Of a stretch of 64,000 nucleotides of DNA, positions 11,309-57,372 are shown piece after piece. The notes below the pieces were generated by a model. It searched no databases. It was not told where the DNA came from and saw nothing but the letters and a program-made list of their open reading frames with translations. Location: the NCBI GenBank assembly GCA_017303935.1, contig JAFLBD010000003.1, positions 434,001-498,000 on the forward strand, read 5' to 3'. The stretch comes from Armatimonadota bacterium (GTDB taxonomy: Bacteria > Armatimonadota > Fimbriimonadia > Fimbriimonadales > Fimbriimonadaceae). The position numbers and the translations under genes were made by a program. Numbering within the stretch: the stretch's first letter is position 1; the number at the start of each line of letters is the position of its first letter.

Positions 11309-11384
11309 TGGTGCCGCAGGCCGGACTCGAACCGGCGACCCAAGCATTTTCAGTGCTTTGCTCTACCAACTGAGCTACCGCGGC
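11309..11384 (-). tRNA. tRNA-Phe (GAA)
   Basis: Complete 76-base cloverleaf with encoded CCA. Acceptor GCCGCGG pairs with CTGCGGC (one G-T), the anticodon stem AAGCA/TGCTT carries loop CTGAAAA (anticodon GAA), and the T loop is TTCGAGT. Discriminator A. It lies 5 bases downstream of tRNA-Asp and is co-transcribed with it. Confidence 0.95.
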
Positions 11385-11389
11385 ATAAA

Positions 11390-11466
11390 TGGCGCGGATG
11401 ACGGGACTCGAACCCGCGACCTCCGCCGTGACAGGGCGGCGCTCTAACCAACTGAGCTACACCCGC
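11390..11466 (-). tRNA. tRNA-Asp (GTC)
   Basis: Complete 77-base cloverleaf with encoded CCA. Acceptor GCGGGTG pairs with CATCCGC, the anticodon loop is CTGTCAC (anticodon GTC), the T loop is TTCGAGT and the discriminator is G, as expected for Asp. First gene of the tRNA pair. Confidence 0.95.
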
Positions 11467-50535: not shown

Positions 50536-50544
50536 AGTTTACCA
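50536..50544 (-). promoter_or_regulatory. extended -10 of pruA, leaderless
   Basis: TGGTAAACT on the minus strand (50544-50536), 7 bases before the pruA ATG, inside the 3' end of the upstream gene. Confidence 0.45.
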
Positions 50545-51264
50545 GTCCTCAGCCGAATCCCCAGCATCCGCGAACAGGAACACAAACATGATGCTCCAAG
50601 CCGATTCCATCAACACGGCGAAAGGAAACTGAATCGGCAGTGGTAGCGCATAGAGGCAGCAGCAAATCGGCACCCAATAGGCGTAACACAGCGGCAATGT
50701 CATCAGAACCTTTGCTTTGTAGAACCGCCAAGATATCGCCCGCTTCCAAAATCCTCGGGCGAAATCCAGCTTCATCCAACTGAGCAGTGCGGCGGCCAAA
50801 GGGATGGTCACGAGCGGCGTGTAGACGAGCAAATCAAACCCGACTTTGATCAGCACCATCCCGACATCGCTCCGGTGACCAAACAACAGTGCGATCAATT
50901 GGTACAGCGCATCAATGCAGATTCCAACGACGCCATAAACAAACGCGGTCCAGGCGACTCTCCGCGCATACTTCGGATTCCACGGACCGCTCATTCCGGT
51001 GACCGCCTTCGCAATCTCACTGAGGATCCCACCCGCGATGGCACCCGCAATGAATGCGCCTACAAAGCCAGTTCGGTCCTTTAGCGCACCAACAGAACTC
51101 GCCCAAGTTGCCAGAGCAGGGATTCGGAAATAAGCCACAACCAGCGCGATCGAGACAGCATGGATGAGCAAGACCGGGAGCAGGCACTTTCGAACAGCCA
51201 ACAAACTGGGGCGAAGCCAATTCCAACGTTCAGGCGAGTTCGAAATCACGCCACATTTTGGCAT
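50539..51264 (-). CDS. membrane protein, unknown (loosely Mpv17-like)
   Basis: A 241-residue protein with about four hydrophobic helices and several conserved-looking aromatic and basic residues (RRVAWTAFVYGVV, WKRAISWRF). Layout recalls Mpv17/PMP22-type small membrane proteins only loosely, so I leave the function open. It ends 10 bases before the pruA ATG and may be co-transcribed, though pruA has its own promoter. Confidence 0.5.
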   Translation of the reverse strand: MPKCGVISNSPERWNWLRPSLLAVRKCLLPVLLIHAVSIALVVAYFRIPALATWASSVGALKDRTGFVGAFIAGAIAGGILSEIAKAVTGMSGPWNPKYARRVAWTAFVYGVVGICIDALYQLIALLFGHRSDVGMVLIKVGFDLLVYTPLVTIPLAAALLSWMKLDFARGFWKRAISWRFYKAKVLMTLPLCYAYWVPICCCLYALPLPIQFPFAVLMESAWSIMFVFLFADAGDSAEDW

Positions 51265-51314
51265 CGAACAAGGCTCGCAATGAAATCAGGGCACGAAGTC
51301 AACCAGTTTTCCTG

Positions 51315-51326
51315 TAAATTAACGCC
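51315..51326 (+). promoter_or_regulatory. -10 element, leaderless
   Basis: TAAATT (51315-51320), then AACGCC and ATG 51327. Same -10/N6/ATG layout as at 1614 and 4090. Confidence 0.5.
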
Positions 51327-53144
51327 ATGAAGTGCGTTTTAGTCCTTTCGCTTTCGGCCGTCTTGATGTCCGCTGCCTTTGCAGAAATCACCTACACCGT
51401 GGACCTTAAACCGGATTCCAACGCGCTTCATGTGACCGTCCATATTCCGAAGACCCAGATAGGTGCCAAGATTCAAATCCCGAATTGGGCGCCAGGCGCA
51501 TACGTTTTGCGCGACAACTTCAAGCAGGTCACCGACCTCAAGGCTTTTGACCCTCAGGGTAAGCCGCTCGATATCAAGCAGGAAATTGTCGTTGCGCAGA
51601 AAATCTACGGCGATGTTCCGGACCAAAAGATCGCCAACAACCAAATCTGCACATGGACAATCGCTCCGGCTGCAGAGACGACTCTGAGCTACGACGTACC
51701 TTTGCGATCGGTTGAAGATGTAATGCACTGGAGCGGCCCTCCGACATACATTTACGAAGTCAATCGCAAGAATGAAAAGTGCAAGCTGATCGTGAACGCG
51801 CCCGAGAATTGGGGAGTATACGTGGGGCTTGACGCCGTGACTGGCCCGACCAAAAATGTCTTCACCGCAGCCACTTATGATGTCCTGGCCGATAATCCAG
51901 TCAGCGCAGGCAAACTGCTGGTAGATACCTACACCACGCTTGGAAAGCCTCACGAAATCGTCATGCGGGGCGTCGGACGAAACACCATCAACCGCGCCAA
52001 CCTGATCAAAGCATGCAAATTCGTCAGTGATATGCAAACCGACTTCTTTGGTGGGGCGCCGTACAACAAATATGTGTGGCACTTTGACGTCAACACCGCC
52101 CAAGATGGTGCTGGTGGTTTGGAGCACCTCAGCAGCACTCAAATCAGTTTGGCCGCGGGTCTTGGCCCTCGCGCAGTTTCGGTCTTGAGCCACGAGTTCT
52201 TCCACCTCTGGAACGTGAAACGAATTCGATCGAAGGTTCTCGGCCCGTTTGATTACACCGTGTTGCCAGAGACCGGCGCGTTGTGGTGGCTCGAAGGCGT
52301 GACCGACTATTACGCTAGCAATTTGCTCTATCGCTACGGCTGGACCGATCTGCCTAGCTACATGACTTCGGCGAGCAACAACCTGAACGCCGTGCGCCGC
52401 AATCCGGCATACACCAAGATCAGTCCATTCATGTCCAGCATGCGCGTTGGCGAAGCCTCAAATGGACGCGGAAACAGCAACGGCTATCTCATCAGCTATT
52501 ACAACCAAGGTTGGATTGCAGGGTTCATTTTGGACGCCGGAATTCGGACCGAAACCAGGGGCAAAAAGTCGCTGGACGATGTTTTGAAGGCGCTCTGGAA
52601 CATGACCAAAAACGATAAGCCTGGGTTCAAAGAAGACGAGATTCGAAAGCAAATCGTAAAGGTTGCCGGAATCAATGGCGGCAAGCTTTACGACCAAGTC
52701 GTCATGACCCCCGGCGACATGGGTGCAGAGAAAATCCTGTCCCAGGCGGGATACATGGTCTCGGCGACGATCCAAAACACTCAAGATGTCGGGTTCGACG
52801 TGGGCAATTCGATGGGTGCAGATCGCATGACCGTCACTCGGGTTGATGCCTCCAATCAAGGTACCGTCGCCATTGGCGACAAACTCATCGCCCTGAACGA
52901 TCAGGAGATCACGGGAGACTCAGCTAGGGCCCGACAAACTCGCTTTAGCGAGGTGACTCAAAAGCTGGAATTGGGCAAACCTATTAAGGTCACCGTCGAG
53001 AGAGACGGAACTCGGCTCGACGTCACCGTGAAACCAGTTCAATCTCAACGAACGAGCTACGCCATCGAGCGGAACCCCCAAGCTTCGCCGAATGAGAAAG
53101 CCATCGCGGACGGAATGCTCAAACAGTTCAAAAAGCCTGAATAG
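51327..53144 (+). CDS. M61 family glycyl aminopeptidase-like protease with PDZ domain
   Basis: A 605-residue exported protease. A signal peptide ends in FA/AFA; residues 20-200 are the M61 N-terminal beta domain; the zinc site is H289-E-F-F-H293 with E323 in WWLEGVTDYYA. A C-terminal PDZ domain (about 485-590) is followed by a charged tail. M61 enzymes release N-terminal Gly or Ala residues. It lies 60 bases upstream of the amidoligase operon on the same strand, so possible read-through links the two. Confidence 0.88.
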   Translation: MKCVLVLSLSAVLMSAAFAEITYTVDLKPDSNALHVTVHIPKTQIGAKIQIPNWAPGAYVLRDNFKQVTDLKAFDPQGKPLDIKQEIVVAQKIYGDVPDQKIANNQICTWTIAPAAETTLSYDVPLRSVEDVMHWSGPPTYIYEVNRKNEKCKLIVNAPENWGVYVGLDAVTGPTKNVFTAATYDVLADNPVSAGKLLVDTYTTLGKPHEIVMRGVGRNTINRANLIKACKFVSDMQTDFFGGAPYNKYVWHFDVNTAQDGAGGLEHLSSTQISLAAGLGPRAVSVLSHEFFHLWNVKRIRSKVLGPFDYTVLPETGALWWLEGVTDYYASNLLYRYGWTDLPSYMTSASNNLNAVRRNPAYTKISPFMSSMRVGEASNGRGNSNGYLISYYNQGWIAGFILDAGIRTETRGKKSLDDVLKALWNMTKNDKPGFKEDEIRKQIVKVAGINGGKLYDQVVMTPGDMGAEKILSQAGYMVSATIQNTQDVGFDVGNSMGADRMTVTRVDASNQGTVAIGDKLIALNDQEITGDSARARQTRFSEVTQKLELGKPIKVTVERDGTRLDVTVKPVQSQRTSYAIERNPQASPNEKAIADGMLKQFKKPE

Positions 53145-53204: not shown

Positions 53205-54218
53205 ATGAAAAAAATTGGGATTCTTTTTGGCCGTGAAAACACCTTTCCGTACACACTAGTTGAGCGTATCAACAGTCGAAAAGTGCGAGGCGTGGTCGCT
53301 GAACCAGTGTCGATTGGTCAATGCGTTCAGGCTGCACAAACGGACTACGCGGTCGTTTTGGATCGCATCAGCCAAGACGTGCCTTTCTACCGAGCCTGGC
53401 TCAAGAACGCTGCTCTCAACAGCACGGCAGTATGCAACAACCCGTTCTGGTGGAGCGCCGATGAGAAATTCTTCAATAACTGTCTCGCCGAGAAAATCGG
53501 TGTGGCCGTGCCAAAAACGGTGCTTCTGCCGAGCAACCAGCGCCCGCCCGACACCGAATCGGACAGCTTCAGAAACTTGACCTTCCCTCTGGAGTGGGAA
53601 GCGATGTTTGAATATGTTGGCTGGCCTGCTTTCTTCAAGCCGTTCGCTGGCGGAGGTTGGAAGAACGTCTACAAGATTCACAACATGCACGAGTTCTTCC
53701 ATGTCTACAACCAGACTGGTCAGCTCACGATGATGCTGCAGGAGAATATCGAATTCACCGAGTATTTCCGCTGCTACTACCTTGCTGGAGACCGTGTGCA
53801 CATCATGCGCTATGCCCCACAAGAGCCGCATCATCGCCGGTACGTTCAAGAGGATATTCCGATTGAGCCCAAGACCTATGAAAAGGTTCGAAACGGCGTC
53901 ATTGCGCTGAATCGTGCGCTCGGATACGACTTCAACACCGTTGAGTTTGCGATCCGCGATGGAATCCCCTACGCGATCGACTTCTGCAACCCGGCGCCAG
54001 ACGCCGACATTCATAGCGTTGGAGAAGCGAACTTCGAATGGATTCTTGAAAACGCCGCCGATATGCTGATCGAAAAGGCCAAGAACCACGAGTTCGGGCG
54101 AATGAATTTGAACTGGGGCCAGTTCATGAAAGACTCCGTAGCCGGCAACGCCGTCTCGCTACAAATACCCGACAAAGCCGTCGCGAAAACTTCCACTAAG
54201 GCAACCAAAAAAGGATAG
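53205..54218 (+). CDS. ATP-grasp ligase
   Basis: A 337-residue ATP-grasp protein. It begins with a pre-ATP-grasp fold (IGILFGRENTFPYTL). Expected catalytic residues are visible: K145 in FFKPFAGGG, E180 in LQENIE, and metal ligands E247, D259 and N262 in NTVEFAIRDG and IDFCNPAPD. Ligases of this fold couple a carboxylate and an amine via an acyl phosphate. The C-terminal tail is Lys/Thr-rich. GAGGGG lies just before the ATG; TATCAT (53182-53187) is a possible -10. First gene of a compact four-gene operon. Confidence 0.82.
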   Translation: MKKIGILFGRENTFPYTLVERINSRKVRGVVAEPVSIGQCVQAAQTDYAVVLDRISQDVPFYRAWLKNAALNSTAVCNNPFWWSADEKFFNNCLAEKIGVAVPKTVLLPSNQRPPDTESDSFRNLTFPLEWEAMFEYVGWPAFFKPFAGGGWKNVYKIHNMHEFFHVYNQTGQLTMMLQENIEFTEYFRCYYLAGDRVHIMRYAPQEPHHRRYVQEDIPIEPKTYEKVRNGVIALNRALGYDFNTVEFAIRDGIPYAIDFCNPAPDADIHSVGEANFEWILENAADMLIEKAKNHEFGRMNLNWGQFMKDSVAGNAVSLQIPDKAVAKTSTKATKKG

Positions 54219-54224
54219 TTTAAC

Positions 54225-55364
54225 ATGGCAAAATTGCACAAAAAGGGCTTTTTCAGTCTCGGGATTGAAGAAGAATTCCAGATCGTTGATCCCAAAACCA
54301 AGGAGCTGCGATCCCATATCGAGGAAGTGCTTAGCGATGGCAACATCGTGCTCAAAGAGAGCGCGCGCCGCGAAATGCACCAATCTGTCGTTGAAACGGG
54401 AACAGGCATCTGCGCAGATATCCCCGCCGCTCGAAAAGAAGTCACCACACTTCGAACCGAGCTTGCTAAGGTCGCCAAGGCGCGTGGATTTACCATCGCC
54501 AGCGCAGGCACGCACCCATTCAGCCACTGGTTGGACCAAGAAATCACGGATCACGAACGGTATGAAGGCTTGGTCGAGGAACTCGGTAACGTCGCGCGGA
54601 AGAACCTGATCTTCGGGCTGCATGTACACGTTGGTTTTCCTGACCGAAATGCCGCGATTCAGGTGATCAACGCAGCGAGCTACTTCGTCCCCCACATCCT
54701 CGCACTGAGTTGTAACAGCCCGTTCTGGCTGGGCCAAGACACCGATTGGAGCTCCTACCGAGTCAAGGTCTTTGAGAGCTTCCCCCGCACAGGACTGCCC
54801 CAACATTTTTACAGCTTGGGAGAATACGAAGAGTACGTCAAGCTCCTGGTCAAGCTCAACTGTCTCGACAATCCAAAAAAGATTTGGTGGGATCTTCGTC
54901 TACATCCGACGTTTGATACCATCGAATTCCGAATGTGCGACGTGCAAATGCGAGTTGATGAGACCATCGCTTTGGCCGCACTCATCCAAGCTCTTGTTGG
55001 CACTTTGTACAAGTTACACCAATCAAACCTAACTTTTAGAATTTATCGAAGGATGATGCTCGACGAGAACAGATTCCGGGCGGCACGATTTGGAACTCGT
55101 GGAAAGCTCATCGATTTCGCAAAGCAAACCGAGGTGCCGTACGAAGTGTTGTTTGAGGAACTCGCCGAGTTTGTAGCTGATGCAGTCGAAGAGTTCGGTA
55201 CCCAAGCCGAAATGGACTATTTGCAGAAAATGGTGAAGGAGGGCAACGGTGCCACTCGGCAGCGCAAAGTGTTCAAGGAGACCGGCTCCCTCGAAAAGGT
55301 TATGGAATATATCATTCAAGAGACCCATTTCGGACTGGGAACAGAACCACCGGTGATGGGTTAA
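54225..55364 (+). CDS. GCS2-type carboxylate-amine ligase
   Basis: A 379-residue glutamate-cysteine ligase family 2 (YbdK-like) protein. Characteristic parts are FSLGIEEEFQIVDP, SAGTHPFSHW, FGLHVHVGF and FRMCDVQMRVDETIALAALIQ. Family members form gamma-glutamyl or related amides from a carboxylate and an amine with ATP. Substrate here is unknown, so the name glutamate-cysteine ligase should not be assumed. It lies 6 bases after the ATP-grasp gene. Length and active-site region look intact. Confidence 0.88.
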   Translation: MAKLHKKGFFSLGIEEEFQIVDPKTKELRSHIEEVLSDGNIVLKESARREMHQSVVETGTGICADIPAARKEVTTLRTELAKVAKARGFTIASAGTHPFSHWLDQEITDHERYEGLVEELGNVARKNLIFGLHVHVGFPDRNAAIQVINAASYFVPHILALSCNSPFWLGQDTDWSSYRVKVFESFPRTGLPQHFYSLGEYEEYVKLLVKLNCLDNPKKIWWDLRLHPTFDTIEFRMCDVQMRVDETIALAALIQALVGTLYKLHQSNLTFRIYRRMMLDENRFRAARFGTRGKLIDFAKQTEVPYEVLFEELAEFVADAVEEFGTQAEMDYLQKMVKEGNGATRQRKVFKETGSLEKVMEYIIQETHFGLGTEPPVMG

Positions 55365-55380
55365 GGGTCTAAGGAATAGC

Positions 55381-56178
55381 TTGAGCTCCAATCGAATTGC
55401 GGTTTTGGATATGTACAACGGCGTTGCCAATCAAGGCATGCGCTGTATCGAGGATCTGATCAAAAAGGAAGGCCTCGAGATGGATGTTTTTGACGTCCGA
55501 CAACGATCTGAATTCCCCACTGTTCGCGATTACCGATTGTTCATCTGTTCGGGTGGGCCAGGCGATCCACACGAGTGCCTTACTCACGATTGGGGAAAGG
55601 GCTGGTTCCGCTTTCTCGATGAACTCCTCGTTCTGAACCGAGCCGAATCGGAGCCACTTCGACACGCATTCTTGATTTGCCACAGCTACCAAATGGCTTG
55701 TCTGGCGTGGAATCTCGCAGACGTCACCGAAAGGCAGAAGCCAGCTTTTGGCATCTACCCCATGAACAAGACCGCCCTAGGTGAGCACGATCCGCTGTTT
55801 TCTGGGCTGGAAAATCCGTTTTGGGTCATCGATTCCCGCGATTGGCAGGTCGTTCACCCCAATCGGCTTGCAATGGATGCATTCGGCGCCCAAGTGATCG
55901 CTATCGAGCGCGAACGCCCTCACGTTCCCCTTGAGCGTGCGGCAATGGCGATCCGATTCACACCGGAAATCGTCGGAACCCAGTTCCATCCTGAAGCCGA
56001 TGACGATAGCATGTCGGCTTACCTGAACGACGTCGACGCCCTCGAGAGACTCGCTGGTCGCCATGGCGTGGATCGGATTGACAAGATTCGTGAGAGCGTC
56101 GGCGATCCTGACAAGGTCCATCGAACCCACGAACACGTTCTGCCAGGGTTCCTGCGGCAAGCGCTTTCTACGGTGTAG
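55381..56178 (+). CDS. class I glutamine amidotransferase
   Basis: A 265-residue class I GATase domain that hydrolyses glutamine to ammonia. The triad is visible: C100 in LICHSYQM, H203 and E205 in GTQFHPEAD, and the oxyanion region FICSGGPGD. The nucleophile context is CHSYQ rather than the common CxGxQ, but the geometry fits. A TTG start at 55381 has AAGGA upstream. It stands alone rather than fused to a synthetase; its partner should be one of the neighbouring ligases, implying an amidated product. Confidence 0.83.
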   Translation: MSSNRIAVLDMYNGVANQGMRCIEDLIKKEGLEMDVFDVRQRSEFPTVRDYRLFICSGGPGDPHECLTHDWGKGWFRFLDELLVLNRAESEPLRHAFLICHSYQMACLAWNLADVTERQKPAFGIYPMNKTALGEHDPLFSGLENPFWVIDSRDWQVVHPNRLAMDAFGAQVIAIERERPHVPLERAAMAIRFTPEIVGTQFHPEADDDSMSAYLNDVDALERLAGRHGVDRIDKIRESVGDPDKVHRTHEHVLPGFLRQALSTV

Positions 56179-56187
56179 CATTAGCGG

Positions 56188-57372
56188 ATGGATTCCGCTG
56201 GCCGCGCCGCATTCAACGAGCTATTCTCCGCGCAAAAGTACGACAAAGTCGTATCGGCAGTCAACGATCCGTACGAGTGGAAGACCGAGTTTCGAATCTG
56301 CGAAACCCCAGTTTTCCTGACTGACGAATGGACTCAAATGGCGATTGATGCCTGCGATTCCATCATCACACAGATTCAAACGCCCGAGTTCGAGGCGCAC
56401 GCAAAGACCGCGATTCCTGCCGGTGAAGAGGTCCCAAACCCTGCGCCGCATCCATCGTTTCTTCAGATCGACTTTGCCATCGCGGAGGAGAATGGGCGTC
56501 TCGTCCCAAAGCTAATCGAGCTACAGGGTTTCGCGTCGATGTTTTGCTACCAAAGCGAGCTCGACACGGCTTACCGCACCGCTGGACTTGTGCCGGATGG
56601 ATGGACGCAGTATTTTTCGGGGCACAATCGCGAGAGCTTCTTAGCCGCGCTCAAGAAGCTGATCGTTGGCAACTGCCCGATCGAAAATGTGGTGCTTTTA
56701 GAGATTGAGCCAAGCAAGCAACGCACCAAGATTGACTTTCAATGCACAGAACGTCTGCTCGGAATCGCGCCAGTTTGCATCAGCGAGGTATGGCAAGAAG
56801 GCACCACGCTGATGTACCTTCGTGAAGGCAAACCCACTCCGATCCACAGGATCTATAACAGAGTCATTTTTGATGACCTAAAGTCCAAGAACTTGCCGCT
56901 AAAGTTCCACCCAACTGATGAAATTGAAGTCGAGTGGATCGCGCATCCGAACTGGTTCCACAAACTTAGCAAGCACACGCTGCCGTTCCTCAAACATGAA
57001 GCGGTACCAGAGTCCTGGTTTGTCTCAGATTTATCCGAGATTCCCGATGATTTGGATAACTTTGTATTGAAACCCTTGTACTCATTCGCTGGTGCGGGTG
57101 TAAACGTGAACCCGACAAAGGAAGATATTCTCGCCGCGCCAGACCCAGCCGCCACGCTCTTGCAAAGAAAGGTGAAGTACGCTGAATTCTTAGAAACTCC
57201 GTCCGGGCGAACGAAGGGCGAAGTGCGGTTGATGTACCTTTGGGATGAAAAGCCGGTGCTCGCGAGTACGCTCGTTCGACTCACTCGGGGATTGCTCAGT
57301 AGCGTGAGCAAGAACACGCAAGACACCTGGATCGGTGCCACGACAGGATATCACCGAGACTCAATCGGCTAA
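56188..57372 (+). CDS. ATP-grasp-like ligase, unknown substrate
   Basis: A 394-residue protein whose C-terminal half has a lysine-rich ATP-binding segment (FVLKPLYSFAGAGVNV) and an acidic end (GEVRLMYLWDE), an ATP-grasp-like pattern. The N-terminal half carries PSFLQIDFAI...LIELQGFAS, seen as a separate conserved block. It is 9 bases after the amidotransferase gene. It may be a second ligase that extends the product. The C-terminus overlaps the convergent metX gene end by 12 bases. Fold assignment is moderate. Confidence 0.7.
   Translation: MDSAGRAAFNELFSAQKYDKVVSAVNDPYEWKTEFRICETPVFLTDEWTQMAIDACDSIITQIQTPEFEAHAKTAIPAGEEVPNPAPHPSFLQIDFAIAEENGRLVPKLIELQGFASMFCYQSELDTAYRTAGLVPDGWTQYFSGHNRESFLAALKKLIVGNCPIENVVLLEIEPSKQRTKIDFQCTERLLGIAPVCISEVWQEGTTLMYLREGKPTPIHRIYNRVIFDDLKSKNLPLKFHPTDEIEVEWIAHPNWFHKLSKHTLPFLKHEAVPESWFVSDLSEIPDDLDNFVLKPLYSFAGAGVNVNPTKEDILAAPDPAATLLQRKVKYAEFLETPSGRTKGEVRLMYLWDEKPVLASTLVRLTRGLLSSVSKNTQDTWIGATTGYHRDSIG

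Follow-up and report, generated by a model that had tools for sequence, protein, structure and literature searches.

The window, the stretch of 64,000 nucleotides analysed here, carries a run of four genes at 53205-57372 on the + strand. The coordinates of the open reading frames confirm what a first-pass annotation, made from the letters alone, had described: four genes on one strand, separated by intergenic gaps of 6, 16 and 9 bases.

53205..54218, + strand: AG1, ATP-grasp ligase of the RimK/LysX/ArgX type by open reading frame, predicted fold and invariant residues, 337 aa
54225..55364, + strand: GCS2, carboxylate-amine ligase of the PRK13515/YbdK type, 379 aa (NF010039, PF04107, PDB 1r8g)
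55381..56178, + strand: GAT, class I glutaminase-fold protein, 265 aa, TTG start (PF00117, alignment)
56188..57372, + strand: AG2, ATP-grasp protein of the glutathione-synthetase/glutathionylspermidine-synthetase/YgiC type by predicted fold, 394 aa

The operon has a GC content of 0.52-0.54, similar to that of the flanking DNA, and as its composition matches the surroundings, a recent arrival as foreign DNA was rejected. Anti-phage defence and plasmid carriage were likewise dismissed, as a PADLOC search gave no match and PLSDB contained no match to AG1, and a scan of the operon for promoters and terminators found such signals no more commonly than in shuffled sequences. Upstream, at 50539-53144, lies a divergent gene pair: one product is an unknown protein of 241 aa, the other an M61 peptidase that also matches PDZ weakly. 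We rejected the M61 gene (51327-53144) as an operon member, because M61 peptidases occur in 27 of 31 family genomes, and because in the genus-mate G210, which retains the divergent pair, the contig with the best M61 match is not the one that carries the four-gene operon. At 57361-57372, the 3' end of AG2 overlaps by 12 bases with that of a convergent alpha/beta-hydrolase gene (PF00561, MetX-like by motif). Elsewhere in the window, genes for tRNA-Phe and tRNA-Asp stand side by side on the - strand (11309-11466).

Enzyme classes of the three predicted ligases

GCS2 was assigned to its family by curated models and by motifs. It scores above the cut-offs of NF010039 ('carboxylate-amine ligase'; 498 versus 371 bits), of TIGR02050 (290.7 versus 176.4 bits) and of Pfam PF04107 (207.9 bits), and its family profile matches PDB entry 1r8g (YbdK) with an E value of 8.6e-65. 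The residues G13-E15-E17, H133/H135, W222-D223-R225 and E234-R236-D239 are invariant in the alignment, and both the GhExE and the ExRxxD motifs of GCS2/YbdK enzymes are present (PMC2588565), so that the earlier description of a GCS2-type ligase stands. The models of two known pathways were missed by a wide margin, as GCS2 reached 50.3 bits with TIGR02048 (cyanobacterial gshA; cut-off 249) and 11.3 bits with TIGR03444 (EgtA of ergothioneine biosynthesis; cut-off 370.8).

AG1 reached no curated cut-off in Pfam or NCBIfam. It scored 14.8 bits with TIGR00768 (rimK_fam), the cut-off of which is 143.4, and is thus outside the RimK family as defined by that sequence profile; the R2K families of Pfam were borderline and below a hit, and hhalign gave only a weak alignment with single-sequence RimK. 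The structures of AG1 and AG2 were therefore considered as models predicted from alignments of relatives. The AG1 model (pLDDT 82.1) was matched best by RimK 7qys in VIA-align (Z 21.1, rmsd 2.9, 261 aligned); D-Ala ligases and other ATP-grasp enzymes followed at a distance of about 3 Z units or less, and the fold also resembles the graspetide ligases PsnB and MdnC. K145-P146, E247, D259 and N262-P263 are invariant in 39 aligned sequences. As many ATP-grasp enzymes score close behind RimK, the predicted fold safely places AG1 in the ATP-grasp superfamily with a RimK/LysX-like shape, the finer subgroup being beyond the resolving power of the fold. At loci L107, L108 and L111, a stop interrupts the matched AG1 span in G013 and G155, and the G120 match is divided between two contigs.

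With AG2, no ATP-grasp, glutathionylspermidine synthase/YgiC or glutathione synthetase model of Pfam or NCBIfam gave a match. Its predicted model (pLDDT 90.7) found 3n6x with Foldseek (E 4.1e-14) and matches glutathionylspermidine synthetase (GspS), eukaryotic glutathione synthetase and YgiC/YjfC over the full length, with VIA-align values of Z 24.7 for YgiC (rmsd 3.6, 341 aligned), Z 23.7 for GspS and Z 22.2 for human glutathione synthetase 2hgs (rmsd 3.9, 363 aligned), whereas unrelated ATP-grasp enzymes scored Z 7.9 or less. K295-P296 aligns with the Lys-Pro motif of YgiC, and D95, E111, Q113, E345 and R347 are invariant. AG2 is thus a fold relative, as judged by its model and outside the reach of sequence profiles, of the rearranged glutathione-synthetase/GspS/YgiC class. 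The predicted folds bear out the two ATP-grasp proteins of the first-pass annotation, but AG2 is not the ordinary kind. All three ligases keep their ATP- and metal-binding residues invariant, as had been expected, and the earlier statement that no known thiol or amide pathway fits also held, as neither the gshA and EgtA profiles nor those for glutathione synthetase were reached.

Spread and co-inheritance of the gene set

A scan with AG1 as bait, in which AG1 is over-represented by design, yielded 80 loci, mainly from Bacteroidota and Ignavibacteria, plus a Calditrichota and a Verrucomicrobia record. By clustering of open reading frames, 41 of these loci hold the full set of four genes; AG1, GCS2 and AG2 are found without GAT in 11, and AG1, GAT and AG2 without GCS2 in 9, the remaining loci being truncated at contig ends or short of further genes. 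The same gene order recurs in several bacterial phyla. As GCS2, GAT or AG2 can each be absent, the pathway may be modular.

Within the window's phylum, AG2 occurs in 9 of 291 genomes, and AG1 is found with at least 54% identity in the same nine, besides one match of 42% (G053) and two weak partial matches. GCS2 (at least 55% identity) is present in eight of the nine, and the ninth genome is 73% complete. Four of the nine belong to one genus: G210 shows the complete ordered set, and although contig ends interrupt the operon in G241 and G242, the pieces agree. In the five members outside the genus the genes are mostly apart, and G013 has AG1, GCS2 and AG2 on three contigs. Genes that are inherited together while unlinked carry more weight as evidence than genes that are only adjacent, and we conclude that the four-gene set is one functional unit rather than a group of chance neighbours, as the first-pass annotation had proposed. 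Vertical inheritance throughout the phylum was not borne out by the trees: with AG1, the genus stands apart from the phylum's remaining members; with AG2, the two groups come together, at a weak support of 0.60.

Further genes accompany the set. An esterase of PF00756 is usually encoded just upstream of AG1 in the bait loci, and such an esterase is present in all nine AG1/AG2 genomes of the window's phylum and in none of four relatives that lack AG1 and AG2. In the window's genome, its gene is unlinked:

G000:C1:216666-217373, on another contig: PF00756 esterase with the GxSxG serine motif

From this sequence-based pattern, the esterase is a predicted further member of the pathway. In many Bacteroidota loci, a convergent neighbour block encodes a third ATP-grasp protein and an M17 aminopeptidase, the third ATP-grasp gene adjoins the esterase gene in three members of the window's phylum, and single relatives add an amidase or amidohydrolases to the cluster.

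That no transporter gene is adjacent, as noted earlier, is correct for the window but does not extend to all relatives: in one of them a sodium:alanine symporter gene follows AG2, and an 867-aa protein (L150:2637-5240) consists of a sodium:solute symporter fused to an AG2-type ligase, which may hint that the substrate or product is transported. At L153:2957-5610 and L154:3400-5990, AG2-like genes (35-36% identity) come right after an amidohydrolase-like gene (Amidohydro_3 in L153) and have no AG1 in their vicinity, so that this ligase family may have a separate use there.

GAT and its aminopeptidase stand-in

GAT scores 25.9 bits with PF00117 (GATase), just over the cut-off of 22.8, and its Cys100-His203-Glu205 triad is intact and invariant in 35 aligned sequences. 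By score and triad it is a class I glutamine amidotransferase family protein, in agreement with the first-pass annotation. The nucleophile motif is CHS(Y/F)Q instead of CxGxQ, with the glutamine at Cys+4 kept, and the nearest solved relatives are 3l7n and the homoserine O-succinyltransferase 2vdj. There was no match to Pfam C26, the family of peptidase C26/PuuD gamma-glutamyl hydrolases, and hhalign with single-sequence PuuD gave a weak local alignment at the nucleophile.

The distribution of GAT points in another direction. Among the 291 genomes of the window's phylum, GAT is found in only four, all of the one genus, and an M29 aminopeptidase of the type seen in locus L054 (at least 57% identity) is found only in the five other AG1/AG2 genomes, where it adjoins GCS2 or AG2 as far as contigs allow. 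In the bait loci L054 and L088, M29 lies between GCS2 and AG2, at the usual place of GAT; in L076 it is next to AG2, and the genome of L074 has a close M29 copy. Its conserved Glu, Glu, His, His and Asp residues are retained, which we take to fit the M29 metal site. Over 41 genomes, M29 occurs in 0 of 22 with GAT and in 9 of 19 without it (Fisher p about 3e-4), a p value that ignores the relatedness of the genomes and comes from a set chosen when three M29 loci were known, and in which 'without GAT' means, outside the window's phylum, not found in the locus. GAT and M29 do not replace each other strictly, and the step may be optional, since many clusters have neither gene, as in 10 of 14 GAT-less genomes outside the window's phylum that also lack a close M29.

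The swap argues against GAT as an obligatory source of ammonia and for a hydrolytic role. Because an aminopeptidase replaces it elsewhere, GAT is most likely, as far as sequences can tell, a hydrolase of an amide or (gamma-)glutamyl bond rather than an ammonia supplier. The clusters of relatives are also rich in amide-cleaving enzymes (M17, M29, amidase), in addition to the esterase. Against the hydrolase role stands that GAT scores with PF00117 and not with the C26 hydrolase family. The earlier idea that the amidotransferase feeds ammonia to a partner thus lost ground, given how often GAT is absent, its M29 stand-in and the company it keeps in relatives.

Discussion

Our favoured reading, to which we give a probability of roughly 0.62, is that the three ligases build one small amide-linked molecule and that GAT is an amide hydrolase, so that the operon would be the core of a ribosome- and NRPS-independent pathway. 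The analysis shows to which classes the enzymes belong, that key residues are conserved, that the genes are inherited together and that an aminopeptidase stands in for GAT in places; the order of steps, the substrates, the hydrolase role and the product given below are inferred. The three different ligases would act in turn, each activating a carboxylate with ATP to an acyl phosphate that is then coupled to an amine, as GCS2 and ATP-grasp enzymes do (PMC2588565, PMC12568646). Most likely, GCS2 would first form a (gamma-)glutamyl amide, AG1 would then add or extend an amino acid in the manner of RimK/LysX, and AG2 would couple a last amine to the peptide's free carboxylate, and this amine could be an amino acid as with glutathione synthetase, or a polyamine as with YgiC/GspS. 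GAT would act on the product or on one of the intermediates, hydrolysing an amide or (gamma-)glutamyl bond, and the PF00756 esterase encoded elsewhere in the genome would act in the same pathway.

GAT could also be a genuine glutaminase and hand ammonia on to a ligase of the operon, giving a product with a primary amide. Its invariant class I triad, the glutamine at Cys+4, GATase as its best Pfam family and the position of its gene inside the operon speak for this, but we regard it as rather unlikely, since GAT is absent from the 11 loci and from the five members of the window's phylum that keep the ligases, and in some of them its place is taken by M29, which is not an ammonia-supplying class of enzyme. 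Similarly doubtful is a glutathione-like thiol, for which GCS2 would produce gamma-glutamylcysteine or a relative, AG2 would be the analogue of glutathione synthetase and AG1 would add a residue: GCS2 does belong to a family of weak glutamate-cysteine ligases, and AG2 has a fold like eukaryotic glutathione synthetase (2hgs), but GCS2 falls well short of the cut-offs for cyanobacterial gshA and for EgtA, AG2 is just as near to the polyamine ligases YgiC/GspS, and a non-systematic look at the recurrent neighbours noticed no thiol-using enzymes.

We consider it quite improbable that AG1 and AG2 modify a protein or, as in a RiPP (graspetide) system, a precursor peptide. By fold, AG1 comes nearest to RimK, a modifier of ribosomal protein S6, and is also similar to PsnB and MdnC; however, the gaps of 6, 16 and 9 bases leave no space for a precursor gene inside the operon, the most recurrent neighbour clusters are enzymes and not short peptides (in a clustering of open reading frames of at least 80 aa), and known GCS2 and glutathione-synthetase-type ligases have small molecules as substrates. 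That the genes belong to separate pathways and are merely neighbours in the window's genome is hardly credible. They are on different contigs in part of the window's phylum, and some genomes of the phylum around locus L014 have AG2 without an adjacent AG1; yet in the window's phylum the genomes with AG2 are exactly those with a close AG1, GCS2 is in all but one of them, and the gene order is conserved in several phyla.

The operon has partial counterparts among known systems. In its whole fold and in its ATP-binding Lys-Pro motif, AG2 is like the E. coli peptide-spermidine ligases YgiC/YjfC and glutathionylspermidine synthetase, but it is only 11-14% identical to YgiC/GspS and undetected by the Pfam and NCBIfam models of that family, and the E. 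coli annotation shows no relative of AG1, GCS2 or GAT alongside ygiC and gss. GCS2 is by sequence a full member of the YbdK/PRK13515 ligases; E. coli ybdK has no annotated ATP-grasp neighbours, whereas GCS2 here is part of a multi-ligase operon. AG1 is like the RimK/LysX/ArgX ligases in fold and residue layout, with a sequence score below the rimK_fam cut-off. Glutathione biosynthesis by GshA and GshB does not fit, as GCS2 is below the equivalog cut-off and AG2 has no glutathione synthetase match, and neither does MurT-GatD amidation, since the partners of GAT are ATP-grasp and GCS2 enzymes and not a Mur ligase. The synthesis of N-acetylglutaminylglutamine amide (NAGGN) involves a class II amidotransferase and an acetyltransferase/ATP-grasp fusion, whereas GAT is class I and Pfam found no acetyltransferase domain. 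In the fungal E-64 pathway (Cp1B and Cp1D), Cp1B (9cjn) is a stand-alone glutathione-synthetase-type ATP-grasp enzyme, to which the AG2 model aligns with Z 23.2, and together with a second amide-forming enzyme it builds a small amine-capped pseudopeptide (PMC12568646). That second enzyme is an ANL ligase, and the E-64 pathway has neither a GCS2 nor a RimK-like ligase.

As a kind, NRPS-independent amidoligase clusters with peptidases are known, and to call the operon an undescribed system, as the first-pass annotation did, was too strong. Iyer et al. are said to have surveyed such clusters computationally in 2009, with ATP-grasp enzymes, a GS-fold ligase and unrelated peptidases in combination, and the operon was possibly already predicted there. 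Our literature searches, the reach of which ended short of that survey (cited in PMC4431377), found no description of the four-gene operon. Added here are the gene set, its spread, its unlinked co-inheritance and the swap of GAT and M29.

More broadly, the set may stand for a widespread small metabolite that is made by three kinds of ligase and trimmed by interchangeable hydrolases; a peptide-polyamine conjugate and a new low-molecular-weight thiol are two examples. We hold this idea only tentatively and at somewhat less than even odds. AG2 by itself occurs in 49 of 148 sampled genomes of the phylum around locus L014. The exchange of GAT for M29 is a concrete hint that the annotation 'glutamine amidotransferase' may be wrong for the GAT family. 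An unnamed small molecule appears to be the product of a conserved pathway that environmental Bacteroidota, Ignavibacteria and part of the window's phylum share, and the gene list of this pathway (AG1, GCS2, AG2, GAT or M29, the esterase, and in places a third ATP-grasp protein and M17) is now testable in cultured strains, such as Dyadobacter and Gelidibacter.
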